NCBI RefSeq assembly: GCF_001766235.1
Contig: NZ_CP015164.1
Span: 1,287,501-1,351,500, forward strand
Origin: Acetobacter ascendens
GTDB lineage: Bacteria > Pseudomonadota > Alphaproteobacteria > Acetobacterales > Acetobacteraceae
Direction of reading: 5' to 3'
DNA: 64,000 nucleotides
Shown here in pieces: positions 23,271 through 53,363 of this stretch (position 1 is its first letter; each line of letters starts with the position of its first letter). Position numbers and translations under genes: made by a program. Below the pieces are notes generated by a model, which did no database searches, was not told the DNA's origin, and saw nothing but the letters and a program-made list of their open reading frames with translations.

Positions 23271-24080
23271 TTACCCTTCTGCAACATAATCTCGGTCCAC
23301 TGTAAGTTTTGGCAGGGGGTTTCGCCCCGCCAGCAAACGCAACCCATTTAGGGTGAGCATTGAATCCACATGTTCAAAAACAGACGTACCTTCTGAGAAG
23401 AGTGGAGCCAGACCACCAGTTGCCAGCACCTTCATGGGGCCAACTTCTTTTCTGATCCTCTCAACAATCCCCTCAATCAAACCAACGTAACCCCAAAACA
23501 CGCCAGACCGCATGGCGGTTACCGTGTTGCGCCCAATGGCGGAATCCCCTACTGGCCGCCCTATTCCTATACGGGGCAACCGTGCTGCTGCCTGATGCAA
23601 CGCTTCAACCGACAAATTGATGCCAGGAGCAATAACACCACCGCAGTAGCTTCCATCCTTATCCACAACATCAAACGTTGTGGCCGTTCCAAAATCTATA
23701 ACCGTAAGTGGTCCACTATACATATGGTGTGCAGCCAGACCATTCAACAGCCGATCAACCCCAACCTCATCCGGGTTATCCACCTTAATGGCAAAACCCC
23801 AATCCAACCGGGCAGATGCAAGAAGCGGTTCAACGGCAAACCACTGCCTGCATAAAGTGCGTAAATGATACAATGCGGCAGGTACAACAGTGCCAATAAC
23901 CGCACCATCAATATCATCTGCCACAATACCTTGGGTGCGCAAGAGCGCATTCAGCCAGACAGCATATTCATCAGATGTGCGCTGGGCCTGCATGGTAATG
24001 CGCCACACACCCCGCCATCTTTCACCATCATGCACCGCAAACACGACATTGGTGTTACCTGCATCAATAACAAGCAGCAC
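23271..24080 (-). CDS. coaX: Type III pantothenate kinase
   Basis: A 269-residue CoaX kinase, phosphorylating pantothenate in the first step of CoA synthesis. The N-terminal phosphate motif is [13 protein letters not shown], then [13 protein letters not shown], and [13 protein letters not shown] is the second nucleotide-binding motif; GGVIAPG and TGGLAPL follow. Type III kinases are not feedback-inhibited by CoA and need a monovalent cation. The start is GTG at 24080 with birA ending five bases away at 24085. It takes the place of CoaA. Confidence 0.94.
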
Positions 24081-24084
24081 CTTA

Positions 24085-24828
24085 TTATACCCCTTCTTCC
24101 AGCAGGATATCTCCTGTCGTGATCGTTTTCATACCGGTTTCCGTGTCCAGCAGCAGGCGGCCATCCTCGGCCAAACCTGCAAATTTTCCCTGTTCATAAG
24201 TAGTTCGGCTGCTAACGACAAGGGGCGTCCCCACCGGATGCGCCCGATCAAGCCACGCCTGTCGTAATGCGCCAAAGCCATTTTGCTGCCAAACAGCACA
24301 CCAATCTGTCAGGCAGGAAAGAATACATTGGGCAACATCTTTTGCTGGCGGAACCTCGCCATACTGACCCAAGCAAGCTGCAAAGCGTCCTGTTTGCTGT
24401 TGGGATGGCGCCTGCGTGAGATTTGCACCAAAGCCTATAACAAGGCGACCGCCTTCCCGCTCTATCAGGATACCGCCTGCTTTTTGGCCATCCAATAAAA
24501 GATCATTCGGCCATTTTATCATGAGATGCCCCGCCACAGCAGGCACGGCGCGCAGCAATCCATCATAAAACGCCAAAGAGGCGACAAACGGCCACCCCCC
24601 CAGCATATCCTGTCCTGCCTGTTGCGCATCCAGCAAAACAGATAAAGCAAGACTTTGCCCGGCATCCACCCACTGGCGGCCACGGCTGCCTCGGCCTTGG
24701 GTTTGCCTATACGCTAAAACCGCAAGACCGGAATCTACCCCATGCCGCGCCTGTTCCAGGCAGAAATCAGAGGTAGAGCCCAGTTCTGCAAAGCATTCAA
24801 GCCGCCACGGGCTAGACTGATCTTTCAT
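24085..24828 (-). CDS. birA: Biotin-[acetyl-CoA-carboxylase] ligase
   Basis: A 247-residue biotin protein ligase from the ATG at 24828, which overlaps the nuoN stop as ATGA. It has [12 protein letters not shown], the biotinyl-AMP loop [12 protein letters not shown], and [19 protein letters not shown], the catalytic core, with a short C-terminal SH3-like domain. There is no N-terminal helix-turn-helix, so it is the ligase-only class and not a biotin repressor. It attaches biotin to the BCCP subunit of acetyl-CoA carboxylase. It is translationally coupled to the nuo operon, so its expression may depend on nuo transcription. Confidence 0.92.
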
Positions 24829-26267
24829 CCGCCCAGAGCAAGTGCGGCCTGATGCGCCCATGCCATGAGAGGGCCCATTCCTGCAACAAACAAGGCAGTT
24901 GCCAAACCCATGCTGCCGGAAACAAATAACAGGCTAGGGGCAGGACGATCCAGCACTTCTGCTGGGCTATCAAAATACATCACCTTCACAATCCGCAGAT
25001 AATAATACGCACCAACTATGCTGGAGAGTGCGCCAATTACCACCAGTACGTAAAGGCCAGACTGCCAAGCCGCGGCAAAAACCAGAAATTTACCAAAGAA
25101 ACCAGCCAAAGGTGGTGCCCCCACCATGCTGAACATAAACAACGCCAAAACAGCAGCCATTGCCGGATCTGTACGCCCAAGGCCTGCCAGATCGGAAATG
25201 CTTACAACCTCACGCCCTTTCCGTCGCATCGCCGTAATGCAGGCAAATACACCTGCATTCATCACAAAATAAGCCGCCAAATAAATAAGCGTGGCCTGTA
25301 TGCCTGCAAGCGATGCTGCCGCCAGCCCCATCATGGCGTATCCCATATGACCAATGGAGGAATATGCCATCAGGCGTTTGATATTGCCTTGAGGAATAGC
25401 TGCAAAAGCCCCGTACACCATGGACAGCACGGAAACGGTTTCTATCAAGATCTGCCAGCGCGGAGCGACTGTGCCAAACGGCCCAGCCATAACACGCAAG
25501 AACAACGCAAAAGCTGCAAATTTTGGAGCCCCTGCCATATAAGCTGTTACTGGAGTGGGCGCACCTTGATAGACATCTGGCGTCCACATATGAAACGGCA
25601 CGGCTGAGAGTTTGAAGCACAGGCCGGTAACAATAAAAACAATCCCGACAATCAGCCCCATTGGCAGAGCGCCTGAAGCTCGAATGGCCGCTACCAACCC
25701 TGTATATTCCATGGTGCCTGCATAACCATACACCAGCGAAATACCATAGAGCAGCAAACCAGAAGCCAAAGACCCAAGTACGAAATACTTCAACCCGGCT
25801 TCTGATGACAGCACGCTATCCCGCTCCATCGCACACAAAATGTAAATGGACAGAGATGAGAGTTCCAACCCCACAAACAGTGTCATCAAATTGGCGGAAG
25901 ATGCCATGATCATCGCGCCTAAAGTTGAAAACAGCATCAGCACCGGAGTTTCAAACGGCAGGGTAGTTTTATCCCGCGTACGGTAACTAAACGTTAGCGC
26001 CACAGCGACCAATGCACCTGCCAGTATCAGCATCTTCATGAAGCGAGCAAAACCATCATTCACAAAGGTGCCTGCATACCCTTCCCCCATTGGTGAAAGC
26101 AGCACCAGAGACCCGGATACGGCAAATGCTGCAATGCTCAGCATGGCAGAAGAGAAAAACCCCTCCCCTTTCCGCTGTAATACACCGGCTACCAGAATAA
26201 CAATGCCAGACAACGCAAGCACAATTTCTGGCACTGCTATTGTCCAGTTAAAGCTGGTCATACTCAT
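24825..26267 (-). CDS. nuoN: NADH-quinone oxidoreductase subunit N
   Basis: A 480-residue antiporter-like membrane subunit of complex I with about 14 hydrophobic helices. LTPFVGLELSSLSIYILCAM-type helix V (seen as TLFVGLELSSLSIYILC), the lysine-bearing helices around KLSAVPFHMWTPDVYQGAP, and VTAYMAGAPKFAAF are typical for NuoN. It translocates protons as one of three such subunits with NuoL and NuoM. The reading frame is complete. Its start (ATGAGTATGACC at 26267) overlaps the stop of a 19-codon mini-ORF that occupies the place of nuoM. Confidence 0.95.
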   Translation of the reverse strand: MSMTSFNWTIAVPEIVLALSGIVILVAGVLQRKGEGFFSSAMLSIAAFAVSGSLVLLSPMGEGYAGTFVNDGFARFMKMLILAGALVAVALTFSYRTRDKTTLPFETPVLMLFSTLGAMIMASSANLMTLFVGLELSSLSIYILCAMERDSVLSSEAGLKYFVLGSLASGLLLYGISLVYGYAGTMEYTGLVAAIRASGALPMGLIVGIVFIVTGLCFKLSAVPFHMWTPDVYQGAPTPVTAYMAGAPKFAAFALFLRVMAGPFGTVAPRWQILIETVSVLSMVYGAFAAIPQGNIKRLMAYSSIGHMGYAMMGLAAASLAGIQATLIYLAAYFVMNAGVFACITAMRRKGREVVSISDLAGLGRTDPAMAAVLALFMFSMVGAPPLAGFFGKFLVFAAAWQSGLYVLVVIGALSSIVGAYYYLRIVKVMYFDSPAEVLDRPAPSLLFVSGSMGLATALFVAGMGPLMAWAHQAALALGG

Positions 26268-26323
26268 TGCACCATACCCCGTAGGTAGGAGGAAAAAGGA
26301 AAGGGTAAAACCGTTTCGCGCAT
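26264..26323 (-). pseudogene. nuoM: 19-codon mini-ORF in the nuoM position (candidate nuoM deletion remnant)
   Basis: Between nuoL (stop at 26340) and nuoN (start at 26267) there is only a 72-base gap where nuoM, about 1.5 kb, normally lies. The gap is organised like a gene: a ribosome site (GGAAGAGGTG) follows the nuoL stop, then ATG at 26323, 19 codons (M R E T V L P F P F ... G M V Q), and a TGA that overlaps the nuoN ATG as ATGA. This fits an internal deletion that kept the first and last codons of nuoM. The short peptide itself is not recognisable as NuoM, so a chance leader peptide remains possible. Confidence 0.5.
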
Positions 26324-26339
26324 TATGTTCACCTCTTCC

Positions 26340-28280
26340 TCAACCACACAGTGCCACGGTTAACAGCACAACCAACCCGGCCAGCACCGTAAAGGCATAA
26401 ATGGCGATAGATCCTGTTTGCAGCTTTACCGCTTGAGCTGCACTTGTACGCGCAGCCTGCACCACATCATGCGGCACGGCTTCCACCACGCCTTCTTCCC
26501 CATCTTTCCAGAGAACACGTGCAATTGCCGTATAGGGACGCACAAAAATGGCATCATACAATTCATCAAAATACCATTTGTTCAGTAAGAAGCGGTAAAG
26601 CGGCCCGCAAGCCCGCGCCATATTGGTTGGCAAAGCAGGGTTCAGCACATAACACAGCACAGCTAACGCAATACCGGCCAGACCCGCCAAAGAGGGCAAG
26701 ATGGCAACAATGCCAGGCACATGCTCCAGATTTTCCATAATTGCATTATCTGGAGCATTGAAAATGGCCCCTTCCCAGAAACCGATCTGGTGCGTGCCAA
26801 TGTAAAATGGAGCCAAAAGAATACCCGCAACAACAGCGCCAAAAGCCAATAGCACCAAAGGTACACTCATAACGGCTGGACTTTCATGTGCTGCATCCCG
26901 CGCATGGGTATCCGCTGCCTGACCATGAAACACCAGAAAAATAAGCCGCCAGCTATAAAAAGCCGTGAGAAACGCAGTGATCGTGCCCAAGCTCCACGCA
27001 TACATGCTAGCCGAAGAACCGGTGGACCACAGCGCATTCAGAATGGCATCCTTGGACCAATAGCCTGCAAACGGAAACACACCAGCAAGTGCCAAGCTGC
27101 CTATCCACATGACTGTGTAGGTGAGTGGCAGCTTTTTCCATAAACCGCCCATCTTAAACATGTTTTGTTCATCATGCATGGCATGGATAACGGAACCAGC
27201 ACCAAGAAACAGAAGCGCTTTGAAAAAGGCATGTGTTGTCAGATGAAAAACCGAAGCCTGATACGCTCCCACACCTACTGCGGCAAACATGTAACCAAGC
27301 TGGGAACAGGTAGAATACGCAATGGTGCGTTTGATATCTGGCTGCACCATACCCACCGTTGCAGCAAAAAAGCAGGTTGTTGCACCAATAAGAATAATGA
27401 ATGTGCGTGTTGCAGGCGCAAACTCTAACAATGGAGACATACGCGCCATAAGAAACACACCTGCCGTAACCATTGTGGCCGCATGAATAAGGGCAGATAC
27501 AGGCGTTGGGCCTTCCATTGCATCTGGCAACCATGTGTGCAGAAACAACTGAGCCGATTTACCCATAGCCCCCACAAATAGCAGCAGGCAGATAACTTCC
27601 AACATACGGAAGGAAATACCAAACAGCGTGTAGGATGCGTTCAGAACCTGCGGAACCTGTGCAAAAATGGCATCATACTGCACGGTATGGAACAGCACAT
27701 AAATCAGCCCGATGCCTACAAGGAAGAATAGATCCGCCACGCGGTTGACCACAAACGCCTTGATAGCTGCGGCTGTTGCGGATGGGCGATCATACCAGTA
27801 GCCAATCAACAGATAACTGGCGAGCCCCACCCCTTCCCATCCGAAAAAAAGCTGGATCAGATCATTAGAAGAAACCAGCATAAGCATGGCAAAGGTGAAT
27901 AAGGAAAGATAAGAAAAAAACCTGTATGTGGGCATGGAGTCATGGCTCATGTAGCCAAGGCTGTAACAATGCACCAGCAACGAAACCACAAGCACCATTG
28001 CCACCATAGTGGCAGATAGCGCATCAAACCTTAGCGTCCACGTGGCATCAAACCCACCAGCATGAACCCATTGTCCAAGATGCACTGTGGAATGGCCAAA
28101 ACCAGCAAGCCATCCCCCCCACAAAGCCCCAATAGCACAAAGCGTCGCAATGCCCATGCACACAAGGGTAACGGCTTTGGCTAAAGTATCGCCCATGAGG
28201 CGACCACCAAGACCAGCTACGGTAGCCCCTACAAGCGGTGTAAGAACAGCGGCGGAAAAGAGGTTAAGATCGGGCTGCAT
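26340..28280 (-). CDS. nuoL: NADH-quinone oxidoreductase subunit L
   Basis: A complete antiporter-like subunit of 646 residues from the ATG at 28280 (a TTG two codons upstream is possible). FFGWEGVGLASYLLIGYWYDRP and LHTWLPDAMEGPTPVSALIH are the hallmark NuoL segments with the proton-path glutamate and lysine, followed by HLTTHAFFKALLFLGAGSVIHA. The C terminus contains the long amphipathic lateral helix region around WYFDELYDAIFVRP and a last transmembrane helix, so it is true NuoL and not a NuoL/NuoM fusion. The gene runs directly into the mini-ORF at the nuoM position. Confidence 0.95.
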   Translation of the reverse strand: MQPDLNLFSAAVLTPLVGATVAGLGGRLMGDTLAKAVTLVCMGIATLCAIGALWGGWLAGFGHSTVHLGQWVHAGGFDATWTLRFDALSATMVAMVLVVSLLVHCYSLGYMSHDSMPTYRFFSYLSLFTFAMLMLVSSNDLIQLFFGWEGVGLASYLLIGYWYDRPSATAAAIKAFVVNRVADLFFLVGIGLIYVLFHTVQYDAIFAQVPQVLNASYTLFGISFRMLEVICLLLFVGAMGKSAQLFLHTWLPDAMEGPTPVSALIHAATMVTAGVFLMARMSPLLEFAPATRTFIILIGATTCFFAATVGMVQPDIKRTIAYSTCSQLGYMFAAVGVGAYQASVFHLTTHAFFKALLFLGAGSVIHAMHDEQNMFKMGGLWKKLPLTYTVMWIGSLALAGVFPFAGYWSKDAILNALWSTGSSASMYAWSLGTITAFLTAFYSWRLIFLVFHGQAADTHARDAAHESPAVMSVPLVLLAFGAVVAGILLAPFYIGTHQIGFWEGAIFNAPDNAIMENLEHVPGIVAILPSLAGLAGIALAVLCYVLNPALPTNMARACGPLYRFLLNKWYFDELYDAIFVRPYTAIARVLWKDGEEGVVEAVPHDVVQAARTSAAQAVKLQTGSIAIYAFTVLAGLVVLLTVALCG

Positions 28281-28286
28281 AGCCAA

Positions 28287-28610
28287 TCATCCCTTCATCA
28301 TCGTCACGTCTTCGACCTGGATGGACCCACGATTACGGAAATACACCGTAACAATAGCCAGACCGATGGCAGCTTCTGCTGCGGCAATTGTAAGCACAAA
28401 CAGGACCATGACCTGCCCAGACAAATCTCCATGCGCAGAAGAAAATGCAACAAGGTTGAGATTGGCCGAAAGCAGAATGAGTTCCATGGACATCAGCAGG
28501 ATGATGACGTTCTTGCGGTTTAGAAAAATACCAAACACACCCAGAACCAGCAGTGCCGCGCTAACAAAAAGATAAGGCCCAATACCTATGGGAGCGATCG
28601 CGGATGTCAT
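28287..28610 (-). CDS. nuoK: NADH-quinone oxidoreductase subunit K
   Basis: A 107-residue subunit with three transmembrane helices. [18 protein letters not shown] carries the conserved glutamate of helix 2, and [17 protein letters not shown] carries the second membrane glutamate, both needed for coupling of quinone reduction to proton pumping. The start overlaps the nuoJ stop as ATGA, and the stop lies six bases before the nuoL ATG. Length and topology are those of a normal NuoK. Confidence 0.94.
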
Positions 28611-29320
28611 GGCCTGTTCTCCTCTTTTTCCGCCACAGCCTGATTTCCAGAACCATAGGAACCGGGAACCGCTGTTTCGTAATAGGAGCCTTTGGGCCGC
28701 AGGAAACCACCGCTTTCAAACACGTTTTCGCCAAGTGGCAGTTGTACAAGCTCCAGCGTTTCTTCAACTGTGCGTGCGTGTTGCTTATCTATATTCTGGC
28801 GACGGCCTGTGGCGCGTTCACGCAAGGTCAGCACGATAGCGCCTATCATGGCGACCAGCAGCACAAGCCCACACGCCTGAAACAGAAAAACATAGTGTGT
28901 ATAAATAACAGTTCCCAAAGCTTCTGTATTGGTAAGCTGAGGCGCAGGATTAAGAGGTGCCACAATGTTGGCTGGTGCCATTTTCCAGTTGCTGAACGCC
29001 ATAAGCAACTCGGCAAACAAAACGCCCCCAACACACACGCCTAAAGGTGCGTGTTTCTGAAAACCTTCACGCAGACTGCTGAAATCTATATCCAGCATCA
29101 TCACAACAAACAGGAACAGAACAGCCACTGCCCCCACGTAAACAATAACAAGCAGCATGGCCAAAAACTCGGCCCCGGCCACTAGGAACAAACCCGCTGC
29201 ATTAAAAAATGCAAGGATAAGAAAAAGTACGGAATGCACCGGGTTACGTGCGCTAATGACCATTACAGCCGAAAACAGCAGCACCGTTGCAAAAACGTAG
29301 AAAACAAGCTGTGCCATCAT
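28607..29320 (-). CDS. nuoJ: NADH-quinone oxidoreductase subunit J
   Basis: A 237-residue membrane subunit from the ATG at 29320, which has AGGAGG seven bases upstream. Five helices are visible; [19 protein letters not shown] is the conserved helix 3 with the pi-bulge region. The C-terminal tail of about 60 residues (after [13 protein letters not shown]) is hydrophilic and longer than in E. coli NuoJ, ending in a Gly/Ser-rich stretch; such tails occur in alphaproteobacteria. It is coupled to nuoK by an ATGA overlap. Confidence 0.93.
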
Positions 29321-29356
29321 TGGCCAACCTCCTGCCATGTCATGGCCTGCATCTGC

Positions 29357-29845
29357 TCAGCGATACGGGGCATCTAATTCCAGACGCCGCGCAAGCAGCG
29401 CTTCCCACCTGTCTCCATTCGCTAAAAGCTTGTCTTTGTCGTACATCAGCTCTTCGCGTGTTTCGGTGGCAAATTCGTAGTTCGGACCTTCAACAATGGC
29501 ATCTACCGGGCATGCTTCTTCACACAGGCCGCAATAGATGCACTTTGTCATATCAATGTCGTAGCGTGTGGTGCGGCGAGATCCATCATCACGCTCTTCC
29601 GCCTCAATGGTAATAGCCTCTGCCGGGCATGTCGCTTCACAAAGCTTGCAGGCAATACAACGCTCTTCCCCATTGGGGTAACGGCGCAACGCATGTTCAC
29701 CCCTAAATCTGGGTGATAGCGGCCCTTTTTCATAAGGGTAGTTCAATGTTACTTTTGGGCGAAACATCATACGGAAAGTGGATGACATGCCCCCCACCAA
29801 CTCTTTCAGCAAGAAAGAGCGCAGCGTGTTACCTAAAGCACCCAT
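29357..29845 (-). CDS. nuoI: NADH-quinone oxidoreductase subunit I
   Basis: A 162-residue iron-sulfur subunit carrying clusters N6a and N6b. The two motifs are [12 protein letters not shown] and [12 protein letters not shown], each a CxxCxxCxxxCP ferredoxin motif. The start at 29845 follows directly from the overlap with the nuoH stop (TGATG); [13 protein letters not shown] is the usual N-terminal helix. In-frame codons further upstream lie inside nuoH and are not used. The subunit passes electrons from NuoG towards NuoB and quinone. Confidence 0.95.
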
Positions 29846-30873
29846 CAGTTCACACCTCCCATATGGGGCAGCAGACCCGTTACCATAAGAAAACCTGCAG
29901 TTCCGATCATCCACAAAAGGGAAAGTGGCAGGAATACTTTCCAGCCCAGCCGCATAAGCTGATCGTAGCGATACCGTGGGAACGTGGCGCGCACCCAGAT
30001 AAAGACAAACAGACAGAAAAGAATTTTGAAAATCAGCCACAAAGGGCCTGGCACCCATGTAAGTGGAGCAATCCCCAATGGTGGCAACCACCCGCCTAGA
30101 AACAGAATGCTGACCATAGATGACATAAGGATCATGTTTGCGTATTCACCCAGAAAGAACAGGCCAAACGCAAGGAATGAATATTCTACAAAAAAACCTG
30201 CCACCAGCTCGCTTTCCCCTTCGGGAAGATCAAATGGCGCGCGATTTGTTTCTGCCAGTGCCGATATAAAAAATACAATAAACATCGGGAACATAGGCAA
30301 GCAGAACCAGACATGGCGCTGTGCCAGCACAATATCGTTCAGGTTCAGGCTGCCAACAGCCAGTAATACGGAAACAATGACCAGGCCAATAGAAACTTCG
30401 TAAGAAACCATCTGCGCGGCAGAGCGTAATCCACCAAGAAAGGCATATTTGGAATTAGATGCCCACCCAGCGATAAGAATACCGTAAACACCTAATGAGG
30501 AAATAGCCAAAAGGTAGAGAATACCCACATTGATATTGGCAACTGCCAAACCGTTACCTGTAGGAATAACCGCCCATGCCACCATGGCCAACGAAAAGGT
30601 AAGAAACGGTGCAAACAGGAACAAAGCACGGTTTGCGCCTGCTGGAATGATTGTTTCCTTTACAATCATCTTGATGGCATCAGCAAAAGCCTGAAGCAGA
30701 CCAAATGGGCCATTCACATTCGGCCCACGGCGACGCTGCATGGCGGCCATCACCTTGCGTTCCATCAGCGTAAGATACGCAACAGCAATAAGTAGCGGCA
30801 CCAGAACGGCCAGCGTTTCCAGCAACATCAGAATAATCTGGCCAGCAAGGGTGTGATAAAAGAACTGTCCCAT
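29845..30873 (-). CDS. nuoH: NADH-quinone oxidoreductase subunit H
   Basis: A 342-residue membrane subunit with eight helices that forms the quinone chamber with NuoB and Nuo[20 protein letters not shown] is the family signature in the first cytoplasmic loop, and [20 protein letters not shown] is the conserved acidic loop facing the quinone. It starts five bases after the nuoG stop and overlaps nuoI at its end. It is intact, but lies downstream of the insertion in nuoG, so its transcription may be reduced. Confidence 0.95.
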
Positions 30874-30878
30874 TGGCC

Positions 30879-31558
30879 TTACTCCGCTGCTATCGCGCGA
30901 GGCACGCTATAAACTTTTGAACATTCCGCCATAGTGGGGCTGGCGCGGCTGATAGCGTTAGTCTGGTAATAATCTGGAATGACAGACCTGAAAGGTGCAG
31001 ACATAAAGCTTTTGTCCTCATCTTTTTTCTGTTGTGCGGCAATGGTCTGAGAAGCTGCAAGCCTTGTAATATGCCCAACATGTGCAAATACAGGATTTAC
31101 ATCCGCCATGCGTGCATGCAGTTCCTCCACCGTATTATACGGCAATGTATGCCCACACACTTCGGAAAAAGCCCTAATAATACGCCAATCTTCCCGCGCT
31201 TCTCCTGGAGCAAACACAGCCCGAAAAGCACGTTGAACACGACCGGCCGTATTTACATACGTGCCTGATTTTTCCGTATAAGCGGCCCCTGGCAGAATAA
31301 TATCTGCCCGCTTGGCGGCTGCATCACCATGGTGGCCCTGATACACAACAAACGTTTCTGGTGAAATACGTTCGACGGGAAGCTCGTCTGCGCCCATCAA
31401 CCATAAAATTTCCACCCCACCACGCAGCATGTTGGCAGTGGCGCATCCGTGTGGGCCAGGCACAAAACCAATATCCAACGCCCCTACCCGAGATGCTGCG
31501 GTATGCAGAACGTTAAAGCCATTCCATCCTTCTGCAACCATGCCTGTTTTTTCAGCTA
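30879..31558 (-). pseudogene. nuoG: nuoG, C-terminal part (cut off by insertion)
   Basis: About 226 codons of the NuoG C-terminal (molybdopterin-oxidoreductase-like) domain, ending in IPDYYQTNAISRASPTMAEC and a short tail at 30879. It has no start of its own; the first in-frame ATG gives MVAEGWNGFNVLH at 31541 without a clear ribosome site. Joining this part to the fragment at 34281-35681 across one copy of the TA target duplication gives an uninterrupted 692-residue frame (the junction reads Q-L-A-E-K-T-G), so the insertion is the only lesion in this gene. Confidence 0.92.
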
Positions 31559-31573
31559 GAGCATAATCCGATC
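31559..31573 (+). repeat. IS630 left inverted repeat
   Basis: GAGCATAATCCGATC, perfect complement of 34266-34280. The adjacent outer bases 31557-31558 are the TA target duplication. Confidence 0.95.
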
Positions 31574-31669
31574 AGTCTGGTTCATATCCAGCGGCGGTGA
31601 AGCACGCGGCGGCCTGGCGATGAGAGATATCGTCAATTGCTCCACAGACGGTATTTTGAAGAGCGTCGA

Positions 31670-31684
31670 CGCGGAAATCTCACA
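31670..31684 (+). repeat. IS1380 left terminal inverted repeat
   Basis: CGCGGAAATCTCACA, bordered on the outside by TCGA (31666-31669), the target duplication. Confidence 0.92.
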
Positions 31685-31695
31685 GAAGGGTTGTA

Positions 31696-31766
31696 CATCG
31701 GGTTAGATTATGAAAAAGTCTGTTTTGTACAAAATAATTTTTCATAAGCAATAAACGAACCCGATG
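31696..31766 (+). promoter_or_regulatory. Palindromic leader around the IS1380 transposase start codon
   Basis: Three nested inverted repeats occupy the leader: CATCGGGTT (31696-31704) with AACCCGATG (31758-31766), whose last three bases are the transposase ATG; TTATGAAAAA (31708-31717) with TTTTTCATAA (31738-31747); and the palindrome TTTTGTACAAAA (31723-31734). A transcript entering from outside the element would fold the start codon into a stem, a way other IS elements limit transposase made by read-through. The effect is inferred from the structure. Confidence 0.6.
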
Positions 31767-33149
31767 CAGACAGAGTGTAGCGCAGGCGCGTATGAGTTTC
31801 CAGCCTCCTGTGGACGGCGTGTTGTGGCCCGTTTTGACGGGGGTCGCATGAGTTCGGATGGGGGCGTCATTCTGGTGAAGCAGGCTGATGACATTCTGGG
31901 GCTCAGCCGCCGCTTTGCTGCCTGTTTTCGCGATGAACGGCATCCCGGCTTTGTGGAATACCGGGTTGAAGACCTTGTCCGTCAGCGGATCATGGGCCTG
32001 GCACTGGGCTATGAAGACCTTAATGACCATGACGCTTTACGTCATGATCCTGTCATGGGTCTGGTATCGGGACGTCTGTCAGGAAGCCGGGCCAACTGTG
32101 CGGCACTGGCAGGCAAATCCACGCTGAACCGGTTGGAGCGCAGTGGGCAGCAGGCAGATCGTTACTGCCGCATCATTGCTGATCATGAGGCCCTGGCTAC
32201 CCTGTTCGTGACGCTTTTCATGGACCAGCATGAGCGCGCACCCGCCCGGATCGTTCTGGATGTGGATGCCACCGATGACCGTATCCATGGCCATCAGGAA
32301 GGCCGCGCCTTTCATGGATATTACGGCCATAACTGCTATCTGCCCCTGTATGTCTTCTGCGGGGACCATCTCCTCAGCGCTACCCTGCGCACGGCAGACA
32401 GGGACCCGGGGAAGGAAGCACTGGCAGACATCCGCCGGATCGTGGAGCAGATCAGGAGCCGCTGGCCCCGGGTGCGTATCCTGGTGCGTGGGGACAGCGG
32501 TTTCGCCCGGGACAGTCTGATGACATGGTGCGAAGACAACCACGTTGACTTCCTGTTTGGGCTTGCAGGCAACACCCGCCTGTATGACCGGATTGCCTCT
32601 TTGTCCGCTGAGGTTCGTGACGAAGCCGCCACGACAGGCAGAGCTGCGCGCGGCTTTGCCTCCTTTGACTGGATCACAAAGGACAGCTGGACGCGCCGCA
32701 GGCGGGTCGTGGCCAAGGCCGAATGGCGCCATGGCAACCGCTATCATCGCTTTATTGTCACCACGCTACCGCAGGGAATGTCCGACCCCCGCCATCTCTA
32801 CGAACAGATTTACTGCGCACGCGGGGATATGGAAAACCGCATCAAGGAATGCCAGATGGATCTGTTCTCAGACAGGACCTCGTCCCACACCATCCGGGCC
32901 AACCAGCTCCGGCTGTGGTTCTCGGCCGCAGCCTATGTCCTGCTGACCGCTCTGCAAAGACTGGCCCTTGGCCAGACCAGCCTGGAGACGGCGACCTGTG
33001 GCACCATACGCGCACGACTGCTCAAAATCGCGACACGTGTAACGCTCAGCGTCCGTCGGATTGTCCTGTCCATGCCGGACATGTTCCCCTGTCAGCATGA
33101 ATTCGCCCTCGCTCATGCACGATTGCGAAGGCTCCGGCAGGCCATCTGA
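31764..33149 (+). CDS. IS1380 family transposase
   Basis: A 461-residue DDE transposase of the IS1380 family. The catalytic residues are visible as Asp in VLDVDATDDRIHGHQ, Asp in LVRGDSGFARDSL and Glu in ARGDMENRIKECQMDLF; the N-terminal ARFDGGRMSSDGGVIL is the family opening. The frame is unbroken, so the element is probably able to move. The start ATG at 31764 is buried in an inverted repeat. Codon use and GC content are higher than in the surrounding nuo genes, as expected of a mobile gene. Confidence 0.95.
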   Translation: MQTECSAGAYEFPASCGRRVVARFDGGRMSSDGGVILVKQADDILGLSRRFAACFRDERHPGFVEYRVEDLVRQRIMGLALGYEDLNDHDALRHDPVMGLVSGRLSGSRANCAALAGKSTLNRLERSGQQADRYCRIIADHEALATLFVTLFMDQHERAPARIVLDVDATDDRIHGHQEGRAFHGYYGHNCYLPLYVFCGDHLLSATLRTADRDPGKEALADIRRIVEQIRSRWPRVRILVRGDSGFARDSLMTWCEDNHVDFLFGLAGNTRLYDRIASLSAEVRDEAATTGRAARGFASFDWITKDSWTRRRRVVAKAEWRHGNRYHRFIVTTLPQGMSDPRHLYEQIYCARGDMENRIKECQMDLFSDRTSSHTIRANQLRLWFSAAAYVLLTALQRLALGQTSLETATCGTIRARLLKIATRVTLSVRRIVLSMPDMFPCQHEFALAHARLRRLRQAI

Positions 33150-33319
33150 AGAAACAGACAGTGCACAGACCACATAGCTTCCACCAACACTGCCTTCTCA
33201 GGCCGTGACACCCTCACTGCGTTCAGAACCCGCCGCCAGAAGCAGAATATCGTCAATATTCCAGATCGGGCTCCTGTGGGATGACTGAACTCTACAAAAT
33301 GACCTGAAATTGCCTCAAG

Positions 33320-33334
33320 TGTGAGAAATCCGCG
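33320..33334 (-). repeat. IS1380 right terminal inverted repeat
   Basis: TGTGAGAAATCCGCG on the plus strand, complementary to the left end at 13 of 15 positions, followed by TCGA at 33335-33338. Confidence 0.92.
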
Positions 33335-34265
33335 TCGAGGGTTCGCGGTGCCACCCGTCTGATCCACGCCTTCATTTTGGCGAAGATGTTTTCGATCGGG
33401 TTGAAATCAGGACTGTAGGGCGGCAGGAACAACAACCTGGCGCCGACTGCCTCCACAGCCTCGCGGGCAACGGCTCCTTTATGGGCGGGCAGATTGTCCA
33501 GAATGACGACGTCTCCCGGTGATAAGGTTGGAACGAGCACCTTGCGGGTATAGGCGGCAAACCATTCGCCGGTCATTGGGCCGTCCAGCATCATCGGTGC
33601 TGTCATGCCGGAGAGGCGCAGCCCGCCGATGAACGTCGTGGTTTTCCAGTGCCCGTGGGGCACGGACATCCGACAGCGCGTGCCCCGTTGTGACCGCCCC
33701 CGCAGGCGAGCCATCTTCGTTGAGACGGCTGTTTCGTCGATGAAGATCAGACGGGTCGGATCAAGGTCAGGCTGGCTGTCAAACCAGGCCTCGCGCTGCT
33801 GTGCGACGTCGGGCCGTGTCTGCTCGCTGGCGTGCGCCGTTTTTTTTGATGGTCATGTCGTGACGGTCGAGACAGCGCCAGATCGTGCTCGGCGCAAAGC
33901 GGACACCGTGTTCCGCTGCAAGTGTCTCCGCCAGTTCGACAAGGGAAATATCGGCCTTTGTTTCAATCGCGGCCAGCAGGAAGGTTGACCACGCTTCAAT
34001 CCGGTGAGAACGGCGATCGCCGCCCTGTTTAAGCGCATGGTCACGACCGCTGGCCTGCCACTCAGCAACCCAGCGGATAACGCTCGACGAAGACACACCA
34101 AAACGAACCGCCGCCGCACGACGGGTCATGCCAGAGGCAACAGCCGCAATCGTGCGGCGGCGAAGGTCAGCAGACAGGGCTCGGGTCATACGGGCCGGCC
34201 TCCATACCGGCACATAGTATGAATCAGATTTCGACCAGTATGGGAATCTTAAAATGAACCTATTA

Positions 34266-34280
34266 GATCGGATTATGCTC
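34266..34280 (-). repeat. IS630 right inverted repeat
   Basis: GATCGGATTATGCTC, the perfect complement of 31559-31573, followed by the TA target duplication at 34281-34282. Confidence 0.95.
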
Positions 34281-35681
34281 TAACTGTTTACAAGCTGCGT
34301 AAACGGCAGGTGCATCCTGACGGGTTAAGGCCCCATGCCCAAGAATAATCATAGGACGAGAAGATTTTTGCAAAACTTCCGCAAAAACATGCTCTCCCGC
34401 CAAAAGTTTATCCAGAACATCCGGTCCATCAGCCAGAATATCAACCTGATATGTTGGATCAGAAACAAACTGACCGATACTAGCTATAGGAAAGCCGCCT
34501 CGCCCTGCATCCAGATACCGCTTACGAATACGGGTATTTAAAACAGGGGCCTCACGCCGTGGCTCTACCCCCACTAACAACAGAGCATCTGCCTCATCTA
34601 TTCCGGCAATATCGCTGTTAAACAGGTAATTTGCGCGTGCGCTCAAATCATACCATGCGCTATCCTGTCGGCAGTCCAAGTTTGATGAGCCAAGGCTGTT
34701 CAAAAAATCCTTAAGGGCACACAGGCTTTCCACATCACACAGATCACCGGCAATGGCACCGATTTTTTCACCCGGCACGCCTTCTAGCCTGCGCGCTAGA
34801 GAAACAAATGCCTCCTGCCATGTGGCCGGATGCAACTTACCATGCACACGCACCCAAGGCTGATCAAGCCGCCGACGCTTGAGCCCATCAACCGAAAAAC
34901 GTCCTTTGTCAGAAAGCCATTCTTCGTTCACTTCGTCATTCACGCGCGGTACAATGCGCATAACTTCACCGCCGCGCGCCTGAATCTGGATATTCGTGCC
35001 CAGCGCATCCATAACATCAATGCTGTCTGTTTTTTTGTATTCCCATGAACGCGCATGAAAAGCCGATGGCTTAGATGTAAGGGCACCTACAGGGCAAACA
35101 TCTATCAGATTTCCTGAAAGTTCTGATGTCAGCGCTTTTTGTACGTATGTGGTGATTTCAGCATTTTCACCGCGTGAGACCATACCTAGCTCAGGCGTGC
35201 CAGCTACTTCCGTACTAAACCGAACACAACGTGTGCACTGGATGCAGCGCGTCATGACCGTTTTAACCAACGGCCCAAGATCTTTGTCTGTTACTGCGCG
35301 TTTTTCTTCATGATAGCGCGAAATACCAGATCCATATCCGTAAGCCTGATCTTGCAGATCACACTCCCCACCCTGATCACAAATGGGGCAATCCAACGGA
35401 TGGTTAATCAGCAGAAATTCCATAACAGCACGGCGTGCGCGGCGCACAACCTCTGTATCCGTAAAAATCTGCATCCCTTCAGAAATAGGAAAGCCGCAGG
35501 ATGCAACAGGCTTGGGCGCACGCGCCACTTCTACCAGGCACATACGGCAATTACCGGCAACGGAAAGCCGTTCATGATAACAAAAGCGCGGTATTTCCTT
35601 TCCGGCAGCCTCGCAGGCCTGCAAAGCACTAAAACCTGCAGGCACATCTACCGGTGTACCGTCAACAATGACCTTCACCAT
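34281..35681 (-). pseudogene. nuoG: nuoG, N-terminal part (truncated by IS630/IS1380 insertion)
   Basis: The first 467 codons of the NADH-quinone oxidoreductase 75-kDa-type subunit, starting at ATG 35681 (MVKVIVDGTPVDVP). It contains the 2Fe-2S ligands (RFCYHERLSVAGNCRMC), the His-ligated 4Fe-4S motif (HPLDCPICDQGGECDLQD) and the second 4Fe-4S motif (TRCIQCTRCVRF plus DVCPVGAL). Reading then enters the IS630 end and stops after KQLEHNPI. The iron-sulfur half could still be translated, but about a third of the protein is lost, so assembly of a working NADH-oxidising arm is doubtful. Confidence 0.93.
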
Positions 35682-35686
35682 TATTC

Positions 35687-37015
35687 TTACTCCGCCACCA
35701 CAGGCACACCGCCCGCAGGCACCTGCACCAAGCCAGTGCCACCATACGCAGCCTTGTACTGCCGAATTCGGGCTTCCATTTCTGGCCGGAAATGCCGGAT
35801 CAGCCCCTGAATGGGCCATGCTGCGGCGTCACCCAGCGCACAAATAGTATGGCCTTCCACCTGCTTGGTCACCTGCTCCAGCAGATCAATTTCTTCTATT
35901 TCGGCTGTGCCCTGCACCATGCGGTTCATCATGCGCATCATCCACCCGGTGCCTTCCCGACATGGCGTGCACTGCCCGCAGCTTTCATGTTTAAAGAACT
36001 TTGAAAAACGCGCGATGGCTTCAATAATATCTGTGGATTTATCCATTACAATCATGCAAGCCGTACCTAAACCGGAACGTTCTGCACGCAAACTATCGTA
36101 ATCCATCAACACAGTTTCACAGATAGATTTGGGCAGCACAGGAACAGAGCAACCACCGGGAATAACGGCCAGCAGATTATCCCACCCACCGCGCACGCCA
36201 CCGCCATGTTTTTCAATAATCTCTTTAAGTGGAACGCCTAATTCTTCTTCAAACACACAAGGTGTATTCACATGGCCGGAAATGGCCATAAGTTTTGTGC
36301 CTGCATTATTGGGCCGCCCTAAGCCAGAAAACCAGGCAGCCCCACGCCGCATAATGGTGGAGGTAACAGCTATGCTTTCCACATTATTTACTGTGGTTGG
36401 GCAACCATACAACCCAGCCCCTGCCGGAAACGGGGGCTTCATACGGGGTTGGCCTTTTTTGCCTTCCAAGCTTTCCAGTAGAGCTGTTTCTTCCCCACAA
36501 ATATATGCGCCAGCACCACGATGGATACGGAAATCAAAATCCCATCCGCTACCAGCAGCATTTTTTCCGAGTAAACCAGCCGCGTAAGCCTCATCTATAG
36601 CTGCCTGAAGGCGCTCGGCTTCTCTACAAAATTCGCCACGGATATAAATATAAGATGCATGCGCCCCCATAGCGAAAGAGGCAATCATTGCGCTCTCTAT
36701 CAGCTTATGTGGTTCATGCCGCATAACTTCCCGGTCCTTACAGGTGCCGGGTTCTGATTCATCTCCATTAATAACGAGATAATGGGGGCGGCCATCAGAC
36801 TTTTTGGGCATGAATGACCACTTTAACCCGGTGGGAAAGCCCGCCCCACCCCGCCCGCGCAGGCCAGACGCTTTCATTTCCGCCACGACTGCATCTCGCC
36901 CTTTTGCGATAATATCTGCTGTATTCTCCCAGCCTCCCCGTTTACGCGCTGCGGGCAAACGCCAATCATTCTGGCCATAAAGATTGGTGAAGATACGGTC
37001 TTTATCCTGAAGCAT
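35687..37015 (-). CDS. nuoF: NADH-quinone oxidoreductase subunit F
   Basis: A 442-residue flavoprotein from the ATG at 37015 ([26 protein letters not shown] upstream). FMN and NADH sites are visible as [13 protein letters not shown] and [15 protein letters not shown], a glycine-rich [16 protein letters not shown] follows, and the N3 cluster ligands are [13 protein letters not shown] plus [10 protein letters not shown]. It oxidises NADH together with NuoE and NuoG. It is intact and separated from nuoG by five bases. In-frame codons further upstream run into nuoE and are not conserved. Confidence 0.95.
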
Positions 37016-37026
37016 GGCCGTTTCTC

Positions 37027-37670
37027 CTATTTCTGATCCGGGGATGACGCAGACGTTTCCAAAAGAGTTTTTCTGCCCCCTTCCGGTGCTGAGCACATAC
37101 GGTTAATAGCTGGCCCAGCTTCTGACCTACGGCCTGCACGCAAATCTGCAATTAATGCTTCTGTGCGTGGACCATCCATATCTTCGTAGTAATCATCATC
37201 AATTTGCAGAATAGGTGCGTTGGCACATGCACCCAGGCATTCTACTTCTGTTAGCGTAAACAGACCATCTGCACTGGTTTCACCAAAATGATGAATCCCC
37301 GTTGCCTTACGGCAAGCCTCTGTTACCGCATTCGAACCACGTATAACCAGCATGGTGTGGTTGTGCAAACCTGAAGGTGATAGCGACCAATCGGCTTTGT
37401 GTTGAACATGGTGTAAAAAGAAGCAACCTCATACACACGTATTGGTGCCATCTCTAACCTGTGGGCAATTTCATCCATTGCCACAAGAGGTATCCATGCA
37501 CTGCCGGTTACACGGCCCATCTGGCGCTGTGCAATATATAAAAGTGGCATAACTGCACTGGCTTTGCGTTCTTCTGGGTATTTTTTAAGAACATTTACAA
37601 TTTCTGCTTCAGATTCATCATCAAAAGCAAAACTCTCCGGCTGTTTTGCCGGGGCCCAGGTGGTGTTCAT
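37027..37670 (-). pseudogene. nuoE: nuoE, frameshifted by a 2-base TA duplication
   Basis: The 24-kDa-type subunit carrying the N1a 2Fe-2S cluster. The first frame (ATG at 37670, overlapping the nuoD stop as ATGA) reads normally to YHLQVCTTTPCWL, then meets an extra TA (TATA at 37342-37345) and stops seven codons later. The rest continues in another frame from RGSNAVTEACRKATG, through the second ligand pair VECLGACANAPILQ, to a stop at 37027. Removing exactly two bases gives one frame of 213 codons. Cysteines of the cluster are thus divided between two frames. A TA duplication is what loss of an IS630-type element can leave behind, or simple slippage. Confidence 0.9.
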
Positions 37671-38947
37671 CGGTCAACCTCCCCGAACACAAGATCAAGC
37701 GATCCGATAATGGCCACTATGTCTGCCAGCATACCGCGGCGAGACAATTCATCAATGGCCTGAAGATGAGCAAATCCTGTTGGGCGAATTTTGCAGCGAT
37801 AAGGTCGGTTGCTTCCATCAGCAACCAGATACACCCCAAACTCTCCTTTAGGACTTTCTACCGCTGTATAGGTTGCACCGGGGGGTACGTGATACCCTTC
37901 GCTAAACAACTTGAAGTGATGAATGAGCGCTTCCATAGAACGCTTCATTTCTGCGCGTGGTGGCGGGCTGAACTTGGGGTCCTGCACCTTTACGTCTCCA
38001 GGGCGTATCTGGGCTAGGCATTGCTCAATAATCTTGACGCTTTCACGCATTTCCGCAACACGTACCAAATACCGATCATAACAATCGCCCTGCCGCGCTA
38101 CCGGCACATTGAATTTAACTTTGTGATAATTGTCATAGGGCTGATTACGACGCAGATCCCACGGCACACCAGAGGCACGCAAACACGGTCCGCTAAAGCC
38201 CCAAGCTAATGCTTGCTCTGTTGTAAAAACGCCAATACCAACAGTGCGCTGTTTCCAGATACGGTTTTCAGTCAGCAAACCTTCGAGTTCATCAATCCAT
38301 TTTGGAAACTCTTTGGCCCATACACCTATTTTATCTTCCAACTCTGCAGGAACATCACGTGCTACACCACCGGGGCGAAAATAATTGGCATGAAACCGTG
38401 CGCCAGATGCTGCCTCGTAAAACTCCAGAAGTTTTTCGCGTTCTTCATACCCCCACAAAGCAGGGGTAACGGCCCCACAATCTAGCCCCATAGCTGTAAG
38501 GTTGAGAATGTGGTTCAGAACACGCGTGATTTCCGCAAACATGACACGCAGCCACTTGGCACGTTCCGGAATTTCAATGCCTAGAAGTTTTTCCGTTGCC
38601 AGTGCAAATGCTTGCTCCTCACACATCGGAGAAACGTAATCCAGCCGATCAAAATACGGCAGAGCTTTCTGATAAGTTTTGTATTCTATCAGCTTTTCTG
38701 TGCCACGATGCAAAAGCCCAATATGAGGCACAGCACGTGCCACCACCTCGCCTTCCATCTCCAGAACCAAGCGCAACACACCATGCGCAGATGGATGCTG
38801 AGGCCCAAAATTCAGTGCGTGAGAATCAATTTCCACAACCTTGCGTGGTTCTTCTTCTGCCACCTTTTCTGGCACAAGACTTTCTGGAACATCTTGGCGC
38901 AGCACAGTATCTGCTGTTTCGATAAAGGTGTTTTTTACTTCAGTCAT
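37667..38947 (-). CDS. nuoD: NADH-quinone oxidoreductase subunit D
   Basis: A 426-residue 49-kDa-type subunit, here separate from NuoC. The quinone-site region is visible as [20 protein letters not shown] with the two histidines, then [19 protein letters not shown] and [14 protein letters not shown]; the C terminus is [13 protein letters not shown] as usual. The N-terminal 40 residues before [11 protein letters not shown] are an extension rich in acid residues. The start overlaps the nuoC stop by one base (TGATG). Confidence 0.95.
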
Positions 38948-39606
38948 CAGCCGGACCTCTTCATGCCCTGTCTGACTTCATGCGCTTTTTCGTCTCCGGG
39001 CAAAGTCAGCATGCCCTCCCATGGGGAAACGAAATCGAAATCTCGAAAATCTTGTGTCAAAGAAACAGGTTCTTTTACCACTTGCCTACGCTCCACATCG
39101 TAGCGGACCTGCTCATAGCCCGTTAAAGGGAAGTCCTTACGCAGTGGATGTCCCTCAAACCCATTATCTGTGAGAATACGCCGCATATCGGGTTGACCTG
39201 AGAAAACCACTCCAAACAGATCATAACATTCACGCTCCCACCATGTAGCGCAGGGCCATAAATGGTGCACGGAAGGCACGGCGGTCATTTCATTTGTCTG
39301 TACAATGACGCGAATACGGTGGTTATGCGTGACAGACAGGAGATTATAAACAACCTCAAAGCGTTGCGGTCGTTCTGGATAATCTACCCCACATAGATCC
39401 ATCAGTTGCTCAAAACGGTATGATGGATGATCCCTCAGCAACTCGAAGAAACTCAATAAATAATCTCGTTCTATTCGAACGACCAACTCACCTTTTTCTA
39501 CTGCCGCATAGGAAACTGAGGGCACGGTTGCCATAAAGGTAAAGGCCATGGCAGCCAGTCGCCCCTCAAGGCGCCCCTGCCGAGGATTTACAGGAAGTTC
39601 AGCCAC
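38947..39606 (-). CDS. nuoC: NADH-quinone oxidoreductase subunit C
   Basis: A 219-residue 30-kDa-type subunit. [21 protein letters not shown] and [26 protein letters not shown]-type core (seen from [15 protein letters not shown] onward), then [14 protein letters not shown], are the family signature. The start is GTG at 39606, overlapping the nuoB stop by eight bases, with AGGGAC eight bases upstream; an internal ATG at 39549 is an alternative. It stabilises the peripheral arm between NuoD and NuoB. Confidence 0.94.
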
Positions 39607-40159
39607 GGAGAATGGTCCCTGTCCGACGTATTTTTTTCTGAAGCAGCATGATGCCGTAAATCAAAGCTTCTGCCGTAGGTGGGCAGCCCGGCACATACAC
39701 ATCTACAGGCACAATGCGATCACACCCACGCACAACAGAATACGAATAGTGATAATACCCACCGCCATTGGCACAGGAGCCCATGGAAATAACCCAGCGT
39801 GGTTCAGCCATCTGCTCGTACAATCGGCGCAGCACAGGAGCCATTTTGTTGGTAAGCGTGCCAGCCACAATCATGACATCAGACTGACGCGGAGATCCTC
39901 GCGGGATAATACCCATACGGTCTAGATCATACCGCGGCATGTAAGCGTGGATCATTTCCACCGCGCAGCAAGCCAGCCCAAAGGACATAGGCCACAAGCT
40001 GCCTGTGCGCCCCCAGTTTACCAACTTATCCAAATTGGCAACAACAAAGTCTTTTTCGGCCAGAACGCCCGTAATACCCCGCACAACAGCATCTTGCTCT
40101 GGGCCGGGTGGAAGCGCTTCACGGTTCCATATAACCGCATCCTGCTGGTTGGCTGTCAT
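39599..40159 (-). CDS. nuoB: NADH-quinone oxidoreductase subunit B
   Basis: A 186-residue subunit carrying cluster N2, the last iron-sulfur centre before quinone. The four ligands are visible: two adjacent cysteines in [10 protein letters not shown], one in [17 protein letters not shown], and one in [15 protein letters not shown]. The N terminus is extended by about 30 residues. It starts 18 bases after nuoA and overlaps nuoC at its end. Confidence 0.96.
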
Positions 40160-40177
40160 GGCTGTATCTCCCTCACC

Positions 40178-40543
40178 TCAATCCCAATCCAGCGCGCCCT
40201 TGCGCCATTCGTACAAAAAGCCAATGCCCAGCACGGCCAGAAACCCAAGCATAGAAAGAAAGCCAAACAGCCCAATGCGCCCTAAAGTGATGGCCCACGG
40301 GAACAGGAATGCAACTTCCAGATCGAAAATGATGAACAGAATGGCGACCAGATAAAAACGCACATCAAACCGACGGCGCGCATCATCAAATGCTTCAAAA
40401 CCGCATTCATAAGCTGTGAGTTTTTCAGAATACGGTTTCTGGTGGCCGCTTAGTAGCGCCATACCCAGCATGGCGGCGGCAATAATAACCGACATGCCCC
40501 CAAACACGAGAACTGGCGCATAGTCACCAAGAACAGACTGCAT
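40178..40543 (-). CDS. nuoA: NADH-quinone oxidoreductase subunit A
   Basis: A 121-residue membrane subunit with three helices, the first gene of the nuo operon. ATG at 40543 ([16 protein letters not shown]) is preferred; an upstream in-frame codon at 40561 adds six residues. [23 protein letters not shown] is the conserved loop (in two parts: [12 protein letters not shown] and [15 protein letters not shown]), followed by [13 protein letters not shown]. The 211-base region upstream to the tRNA gene holds the operon promoter, though no clear -35/-10 pair was picked out. Confidence 0.94.
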
Positions 40544-40772
40544 GGTGTGGTTCCTGCACATGTTTAAGCCGCAGTGGCTTTTGTTTCATGCAGCAACCCT
40601 AGCCCCAACATCCTGCGCACGGATATGCACGAACGCGTTGGGTATGGGGCACTTTCTTGTGAAGGCCGAATTTTAAAGGGGAATTGAGAGGTCAGAGAAT
40701 GTTCTGACCAAAACACACACAGGCAGCAATGGAACTAAGTCCATTGTGCATGTGGGTTACCATTTGGGGAAA

Positions 40773-52062: not shown

Positions 52063-53363
52063 GTGACTGAAACCTACGATACGGACGTTCTTTATCTGGC
52101 AACGCAGGGTGATGGTGCCGTGCGTACGCCAGATGGGCGCGTAGCTTATATTCCAGAGACCCTTGCTGGTGAGCATGTTCGTCTGACGAAAAGTTCAGAT
52201 GGAAAATGGCAGCTTGTTGAGGTGCTTCAGCCTTCACCGGATCGGCAAACGCCACCTTGCGCATTGTTTGAACAATGCGGTGGCTGCACGCTCCAGCATG
52301 TAAAACCTGCTGCTATTTTGCAGTGGAAAACAGCTACTGTTCAACATGCCTTACAAAAAGCCGGTTTTAGCAATCTGCCGGCATTTTCTGCAAAGCAGGT
52401 GCAGCCACATTCACGCCGCAGAGCAGATCTGGCTGTAAGACGCCAGCCTGATGGCATTATTATTGGGCTTCATGCACGCAACAGCCACGCGGTTACGGAT
52501 TTTACCACCTGTGTTGTGTTGCACCCTGATATTCTAGCAGCCCTACCCGCTTTTCGGACCACGCTCCGCAGCTTAAACGCCATTCGACGCGAAGCCAATT
52601 TGCATATCAATTTGCTGGATTCTGGGCCAGATGTTCTATTGCAAACAGATGGGCCTCTGACTGCACCAGATCGCGTCCGTTTAGCCCAACTGGCAACAGA
52701 ACAGCATATCCCTCGCATTAGCTGGCAACAGATCAAAGATACCGGGTTGCCGGAAGTTGCGGCACAATCGGGCTCTGTTGTTCAGACAATCGCTTCTCAC
52801 CAAATTGCGCCACCACCTGGAAGTTTTTTCCAGGCAACGCGTGAGAGCGAGAAATATATTCAGGATGCCGTTGTAAAAAGCCTGCCTGCCAAACTGAACC
52901 GTCGGGATATTATCACCGAACTCTATGCTGGCTGTGGCACCCTTACCTTTCCATTGGCAGAACGTGCCCGCGTAAATGCTTACGAAGGTTATGCGCCTGC
53001 TTTGGAAGCCTTAAAAAAAAAGCGACTGGTGGCACGCGTATCAACGCATTTTGCCGGGATCTGAACCATCAGCCTATTCTAGCTAAGGAAATAGCAGCTT
53101 CTGCTGTGGTTGTGCTGGACCCCCCACATGCAGGGGCAAAGCTGCAAATGCGCCAGATTGCGCAAGGCTTACCTAACCATATTGTGTATGTAAGCTGTAA
53201 CCCGGCAGCCTTGGCGCAGGATGCAAGCCTGCTATCCAAAGCCGGATATACTGTGGAAAACGTGACTGTGGTTGACCAGTTTTTATGGTCTGCAGAAATT
53301 GAAGCTGTTTGCAGCTTTAAACGTGAAAGCTCTCGCCGCAGCCGCAACGCCCTTTTTCGTTAG
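52063..53363 (+). pseudogene. TrmA/RlmD-family RNA methyltransferase, frameshifted at an A9 run
   Basis: A 23S rRNA/tRNA uracil-5-methyltransferase-type enzyme, starting with GTG at 52063. An iron-sulfur-type cysteine segment FEQCGGCTLQH lies near residue 70, and the SAM motif is ELYAGCGTLTF. The first frame ends at 53064 after EALKKKRLVARV. The rest continues in another frame from ATGGTRINAFCRDLN through VVLDPPHAGAKLQ and the catalytic VYVSCNPAAL to 53363. Adding one A to the nine-A run at 53013-53021 joins both into a single 433-residue protein. The catalytic cysteine is in the second part, so as read the enzyme is inactive. A sequencing error or phase variation at the run is equally possible. 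Confidence 0.85.

Follow-up and report, generated by a model that had tools for sequence, protein, structure and literature searches.

Acetic acid bacteria differ in how they keep, rearrange or lose the proton-pumping NADH dehydrogenase (complex I). In parts of the published account of Acetobacter pasteurianus SKU1108, 386B and NBRC 3283 (PMC5158111), nuoM is listed far from the nuoA-nuoN operon and two ndh genes are common to the three strains, and a complete complex I is reported for them (sections of PMC5158111 and PMC3751514). Gluconobacter oxydans has no nuo operon, and Asaia is inferred to have lost the common one and has a type II NADH dehydrogenase (NDH-2), according to a portion of PMC4596401. 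Here we describe the nuo locus in a 64,000-nucleotide stretch of the Acetobacter ascendens chromosome (the window; positions 1287501-1351500 of the 2.86-Mb contig C1, genome G000), which resembles both kinds of system and is identical to neither. As in the A. pasteurianus strains, nuoM is distant from the operon and two ndh-like genes are present, but nuoE and nuoG are broken here; as in Gluconobacter oxydans and Asaia, an acetic acid bacterium appears to have lost its nuo operon, but whereas the operon is gone there, here it is nearly whole and looks freshly inactivated. We consider it probable, at roughly 0.8, that the sole complex I found in this genome was recently inactivated in a process driven by insertion sequences (IS), and that its loss is tolerated as NDH-2 is present.

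The nuo cluster occupies the minus strand, beginning with nuoA (40561) and ending with nuoN (24825); birA, coaX and rnj come next. Two of its genes, nuoE and nuoG, give query matches split in two when searched with the proteins of the relative G025, so that not all complex I subunits have intact frames. The features that make up the two lesions are the following (HMM, hidden Markov model; ORF, open reading frame; aa, amino acids).

37027 to 37670, minus strand: nuoE, in two frames, with a TA insertion at about 37342 (two HMM fragments; alignment to G026; relatives)
34281 to 35819, minus strand: 5' part of nuoG up to the insertion, its frame ending at 34263 within the IS (TIGR01973 positions 1-467)
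31559 to 34280, minus strand: IS630-family element with a nested IS1380-family element; TA at 34281-34282 and 31557-31558 (family profiles, matching ends, TA flanks)
31764 to 33149, plus strand: IS1380-family transposase ORF, 461 aa (NF033539, 424 bits against a cut-off of 180)
30879 to 31558, minus strand: 3' part of nuoG, about 226 codons (TIGR01973 positions 478-605; G025 protein match)

An earlier reading of the window, made from the sequence only, had described nuoG as split by a nested insertion sequence, and this description holds. An IS630-family element with GAGCATAATCCGATC ends cuts nuoG between duplicated TA dinucleotides, an IS1380-family element lies inside it, and the site is uninterrupted in the relatives matched there (G025, G026, G028 and G031). 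The outer element is assigned to its family by NF033545 matches, TA flanks and matching ends, and the inner one by its transposase. Set against known IS630 and IS1380 elements, the pair agrees in transposase families and, for the IS630 element, in the TA duplication; it differs in being nested and brings nothing functionally new. Eight other full IS630 copies occur in the genome (1,053 bp, all TA-flanked with matching ends, all in CTAG, the nuoG target being TTAG); the left 0.95 kb of the nuoG copy agrees with them at 99.4-100% identity, and the IS1380 end has at least 31 further matching places in the genome. Because the copies are near-identical, the nuoG insertion appears to be recent and to reflect a general activity of IS elements in this genome. 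The coding sequence of the IS630 transposase itself (33295-34213, minus strand) is divided between two frames close to eight consecutive A, possibly a programmed frameshift.

The second lesion, read earlier as a 2-base insertion that frameshifts nuoE, is likewise seen on comparison with relatives. The gene reads TGG TTA TA CGT, and since relatives pass from TGG through a single Leu codon straight to CGT or CGG, the TA dinucleotide is the inserted part. The first frame keeps the first two cysteines of NuoE and the CLGAC motif falls in the other frame; we take these cysteines to be cluster ligands. The insertion site contains no homopolymer. We also considered the TA as a footprint of IS630 excision and disfavour this, the eight other copies standing in CTAG and the nuoE site being TTAC.

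How might these lesions act together? In the sequence of events that we propose, an IS630-family element would have jumped into the TTAG site of nuoG and an IS1380-family element would then have jumped into it, and the TA insertion would truncate NuoE past its first two cluster cysteines. Established complex I biology suggests that the NADH-oxidising arm should fail to assemble without intact NuoE and NuoG. NADH would then presumably be oxidised by two NDH-2 homologues, which would carry the NADH flux here, and membrane dehydrogenases would feed the quinone pool directly.

A search of the genome for a second complex I found none: three Proton_antipo_M genes were recovered by Pfam search, encoding NuoL and NuoN in the window and a distant NuoM described below, along with just the split nuoE. 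A type II enzyme had been expected from the first inspection of the window, and two candidate homologues were indeed found, both intact (427 and 430 aa), residues 2-378 and 4-379 of which match the Staphylococcus aureus chain 5na1, a type II NADH dehydrogenase of solved structure (E values of 2e-36 and 1e-33). They were sought through PF07992 and PDB matches, as PF22366 (NDH2_C), which has no match in the genome, was silent in the E. coli control too. Given the two ndh genes reported as common to the three A. pasteurianus strains, this backup is probably older than the lesions.

The age of the lesions can be judged from relatives, a comparison that the sequence-only reading had proposed for dating the loss. 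In our collections, which hold one genome per species, NuoE scores above its cut-off in 47 of 49 Acetobacter genomes (the exceptions being the present genome, where it is split, and G017, where there is none), and 46 of 49 have a full-length, single-frame NuoG match (all but the present genome, G017 and G030). G017 was rejected as an independent loss: nuoE, nuoL, nuoN and NuoG give no matches there, and rnj is also unmatched (E up to 1e-100), which makes an assembly gap likely. In G030, nuoG lies in four pieces, and splits affect 8 of the 17 reference ORFs in that stretch, including birA and coaX, which points to poor sequence as the probable cause. Across all nuo genes the branch dN/dS (the ratio of nonsynonymous to synonymous rates) is 0.041-0.042 in the present genome, as compared to 0.031 in G026 and 0.036 in G028; the 95% intervals for these differences include zero (60 resamplings). 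Since these values lie near those of the relatives, strong purifying selection seems to have acted on the operon through most of the time since its lineage split off, with function lost late; the nuoE and nuoG lesions thus look recent. A literature search found no paper pointing to them.

Was the loss favoured, or merely tolerated? Selection might have favoured cells without complex I, for instance during culture in the laboratory or in acid fermentation. This would account for the operon having been hit twice, NDH-2 homologues are available, and Gluconobacter oxydans is described as lacking complex I in parts of PMC3751514 and PMC4596401. However, the first hit ends such selection, so that the second can be neutral, IS elements are abundant in the genome, and none of the 49 Acetobacter genomes offers a convincing second loss once the probable gap in G017 and the poor sequence of G030 are considered. 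We therefore regard adaptive loss as unlikely. The first reading had spoken of selection against complex I, or of no selection for it. Its account of a loss in this genome stands, with nuoG split, nuoE frameshifted and no second complex I found, but selection against the enzyme does not follow from lesions that appear recent and from a genome with many copies of the same IS elements.

Several observations weigh against a recent and genuine inactivation. The lesions are known from one strain, owing to the one-genome-per-species sampling, and the NDH-2 candidates fall below every NCBIfam cut-off (the best being TIGR03169, at 127 and 132 bits against 310). For the 11 nuo genes other than nuoE and nuoG, dN/dS is 0.033 in the present genome and 0.014 in one sister (interval 0.004-0.035); against the other sister, at 0.021, the interval includes zero. 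Two further genes of the same 64 kb are frameshifted, both at homopolymers, while the sister G028 shows none of 50 genes broken in the same kind of screen, with matches near stretch ends set aside. The nuoE change could on these counts be an assembly error; across 264 kb, five of the 183 G026 genes matched in the present genome are frameshifted (171 intact, 7 otherwise partial), as against two of 185 in the reverse test (177 intact, 6 otherwise partial).

Such points bring up an assembly artefact, in which the nuoE indel would be a sequencing error, the nested IS a misassembly at repeats, and complex I functional. We consider this quite improbable. In the window, 46 of 51 screened G026 genes are full length, and the five that are not comprise, besides nuoG and nuoE, an RNA-methyltransferase-like gene broken at a run of A, a gene of 932 aa broken at a run of C, and a small questionable ORF, which is also the one broken gene among 16 in each of the 20-kb stretches of G025 and G031. 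The two homopolymer frameshifts and the many copies of both IS families fit an artefact, but a TA target duplication set against uninterrupted relatives is not expected from a misjoin, the nuoE indel lies away from homopolymers, and frameshifts are uncommon over the 264 kb. On these comparisons the nuoE lesion is probably real. As to the other two frameshifted genes, the first (52063-53360, plus strand; 432 aa in G026, RNA-methyltransferase-like by eye) is shifted at a run of nine A, and the second (61654-64000, plus strand; glnE-like by eye) at a run of seven C and continues past the window end.

The remaining nuo genes of the operon had been called intact, and matches to the G025 proteins bear this out, with (nearly) full-length matches in one frame for nuoA, C, D, F, H, I, J, K, L and N; nuoB, outside the G025 query set, is judged from its ORF and an alignment with four relatives. 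These genes, and the place where nuoM canonically lies, are as follows.

40178 to 40561, minus strand: nuoA, intact (full-length match to the G025 protein, 100%)
39599 to 40159, minus strand: nuoB, intact ORF of 186 aa (aligned to four relatives)
38947 to 39606, minus strand: nuoC, intact (G025 protein match)
37667 to 38947, minus strand: nuoD, intact (G025 protein match)
35687 to 37018, minus strand: nuoF, intact, its open frame reaching 37096 (NF010120, 820 bits; G025 protein match)
29845 to 30873, minus strand: nuoH, intact (G025 protein match)
29357 to 29914, minus strand: nuoI, intact (G025 protein match)
28607 to 29338, minus strand: nuoJ, intact (G025 protein match)
28287 to 28610, minus strand: nuoK, intact (G025 protein match)
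26340 to 28286, minus strand: nuoL, intact (TIGR01974, 785 bits; G025 protein match)
26268 to 26339, minus strand: 72-bp gap between nuoL and nuoN, the canonical place of nuoM, with no remnant by eye (sequence inspection; canonical operon order)
24825 to 26267, minus strand: nuoN, intact (NF004440, 571 bits; G025 protein match)

Where, then, is nuoM? The sequence-only reading had taken it to be missing and had counted its absence as the third of three independent lesions. The operon does lack the gene, yet a search of the genome found an intact NuoM frame of 505 aa at C1:343226-344740, about 0.97 Mb from the window, with mutL on one side and an rhtA-like gene and then parE on the other. All 14 complex I subunit genes are thus in the genome, 13 of them in the window, if the broken nuoE and nuoG are counted. 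The distant NuoM scores 555 bits with TIGR01972 (cut-off 263.8) and is 98% identical to NuoM of Acetobacter pomorum and A. pasteurianus genomes. Its residues E144, K223, K254 and E396, which we take to act in proton transfer, are among the charged residues invariant in an eight-sequence alignment.

This arrangement is not peculiar to the strain. The domain starts of nuoL and nuoN lie 1,906-2,029 bp apart in 46 of 49 Acetobacter genomes (G017, G030 and G042 gave no distance), a spacing that therefore leaves no room for a nuoM-sized gene, and neither nuoL nor nuoN was found beside nuoM in 38 Acetobacter loci, as far as the fetched flanks reach (up to 3 kb per side, less at contig ends). At 27 of these loci mutL lies upstream of nuoM. 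It was not found in the fetched flank of the other 11 (L028-L036, L039 and L053), and nuoM may have moved again in one subgroup. Across the family we sampled 130 genomes, of which 105 hold NuoN together with a NuoM whose identity reaches about 45% or more; matches under this level, which probably belong to a second complex I type, were dropped, removing 10 genomes that had such matches alone. The two genes are adjacent in 90 of the 105, namely 89 by coordinates plus G099, which was rejected as an unlinked case for a contig break inside its nuoM. In the other 15, from 11 genera, nuoM is unlinked; nuoL is directly followed by nuoN in all 14 that were fetched in addition to the present genome, and mutL falls within the fetched nuoM stretch in 11 of 12 unlinked genomes outside Acetobacter. 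Twelve of the 49 Acetobacter genomes hold six or seven Proton_antipo_M genes, a number that would fit an additional complex I of a different type.

Since the unlinked arrangement spans the genus and 11 genera, with nuoE and nuoG intact, it is evidently old and does not preclude a working complex I. It is ordinary for the group and can already be found in published annotation: for A. pasteurianus SKU1108, nuoM (APT_00690) is listed apart from the nuoA-nuoN operon in a part of PMC5158111, and for strain 386B complex I is given as APA386B_556-567 plus a separate APA386B_2247, a gene not named in the relevant part of PMC3751514. Three independent lesions including a nuoM deletion, under selection against complex I or without selection for it, would explain an operon that has no nuoM and broken nuoE and nuoG, but with an intact NuoM elsewhere, unlinked genus-wide alongside intact nuoE and nuoG and annotated apart in these A. 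pasteurianus genomes, this account is very hard to sustain. The lesions number two, and the operon without nuoM is unrelated to the loss of complex I, because NuoM is unlinked in Acetobacter and ten further sampled genera and is intact here.

Equally improbable is a surviving enzyme formed by the other subunits in the absence of the NADH module, resembling the 11-subunit complex I known from some anaerobes. The genes for the quinone module and the membrane arm are intact and conserved, but so recent a loss makes their conservation uninformative, and we know of no alternative electron donor in Acetobacter.

How nuoM came to stand apart is a separate matter. On balance we see even odds that, in acetic acid bacteria, a divergent second nuoM, mostly beside mutL, displaced the operon copy, which was lost, leaving the core complex to run with a replaced, unlinked subunit, and that G147 is a relic of the intermediate. 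In a tree of 32 NuoM sequences, the branch between unlinked and operon NuoM measures about 0.9 changes per site (support 100), whereas a tree of 27 NuoN sequences separates the same groups by about 0.1 to 0.28, depending on the placement of G049, which falls on the operon side. These two trees, like the larger one mentioned below, are quick trees without bootstrap, and the 32-sequence NuoM tree excludes the operon-linked L050 and L056 and the outgroups L057-L063. In G147 there are two nuoM genes (L150 and L151), an operon copy and an unlinked copy, which fall on opposite sides of the NuoM split; the unlinked copy groups with the acetic acid bacterial type. The long NuoM split, the short NuoN split and the presence of both copies in G147 together suggest replacement by a divergent copy and not a simple move. 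Against this, in a tree of 80 sequences the operon-linked L050 (from a proteobacterium) and L056 (from Acidiphilium) are placed with the unlinked group, their branch being long and flagged with a long-branch warning. This placement may reflect kinship with the source, or it may be an artefact of the tree. A faster rate of change after relocation would be the rival account of the same split. Further nuoM genes occur in G088, G059 and G149 as well. A replacement origin was not apparent in the published work that our literature search found.

Downstream of nuoN, three genes follow on the same strand.

24085 to 24861, minus strand: birA, intact (ORF; G025 protein match)
23271 to 24080, minus strand: coaX, intact (ORF; G025 protein match)
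21618 to 23261, minus strand: rnj (RNase J), intact (ORF; G025 protein match)

Consensus promoter scans of 30800-34320 and 24000-26500 gave 1 and 0 sites (1.6 and 2.0 expected), and terminator scans of the same stretches 4 and 3 (2.8 and 4.4 expected), in neither case a signal.

A fresh loss of complex I in a bacterium with ready alternatives would be usable to test how far the respiratory chain relies on this pump. The locus also illustrates that a gene can be lacking in its operon and still be present in the genome. Moreover, the unlinked NuoM, together with a relative that holds both copies, provides a testable case of subunit replacement within a large membrane complex.

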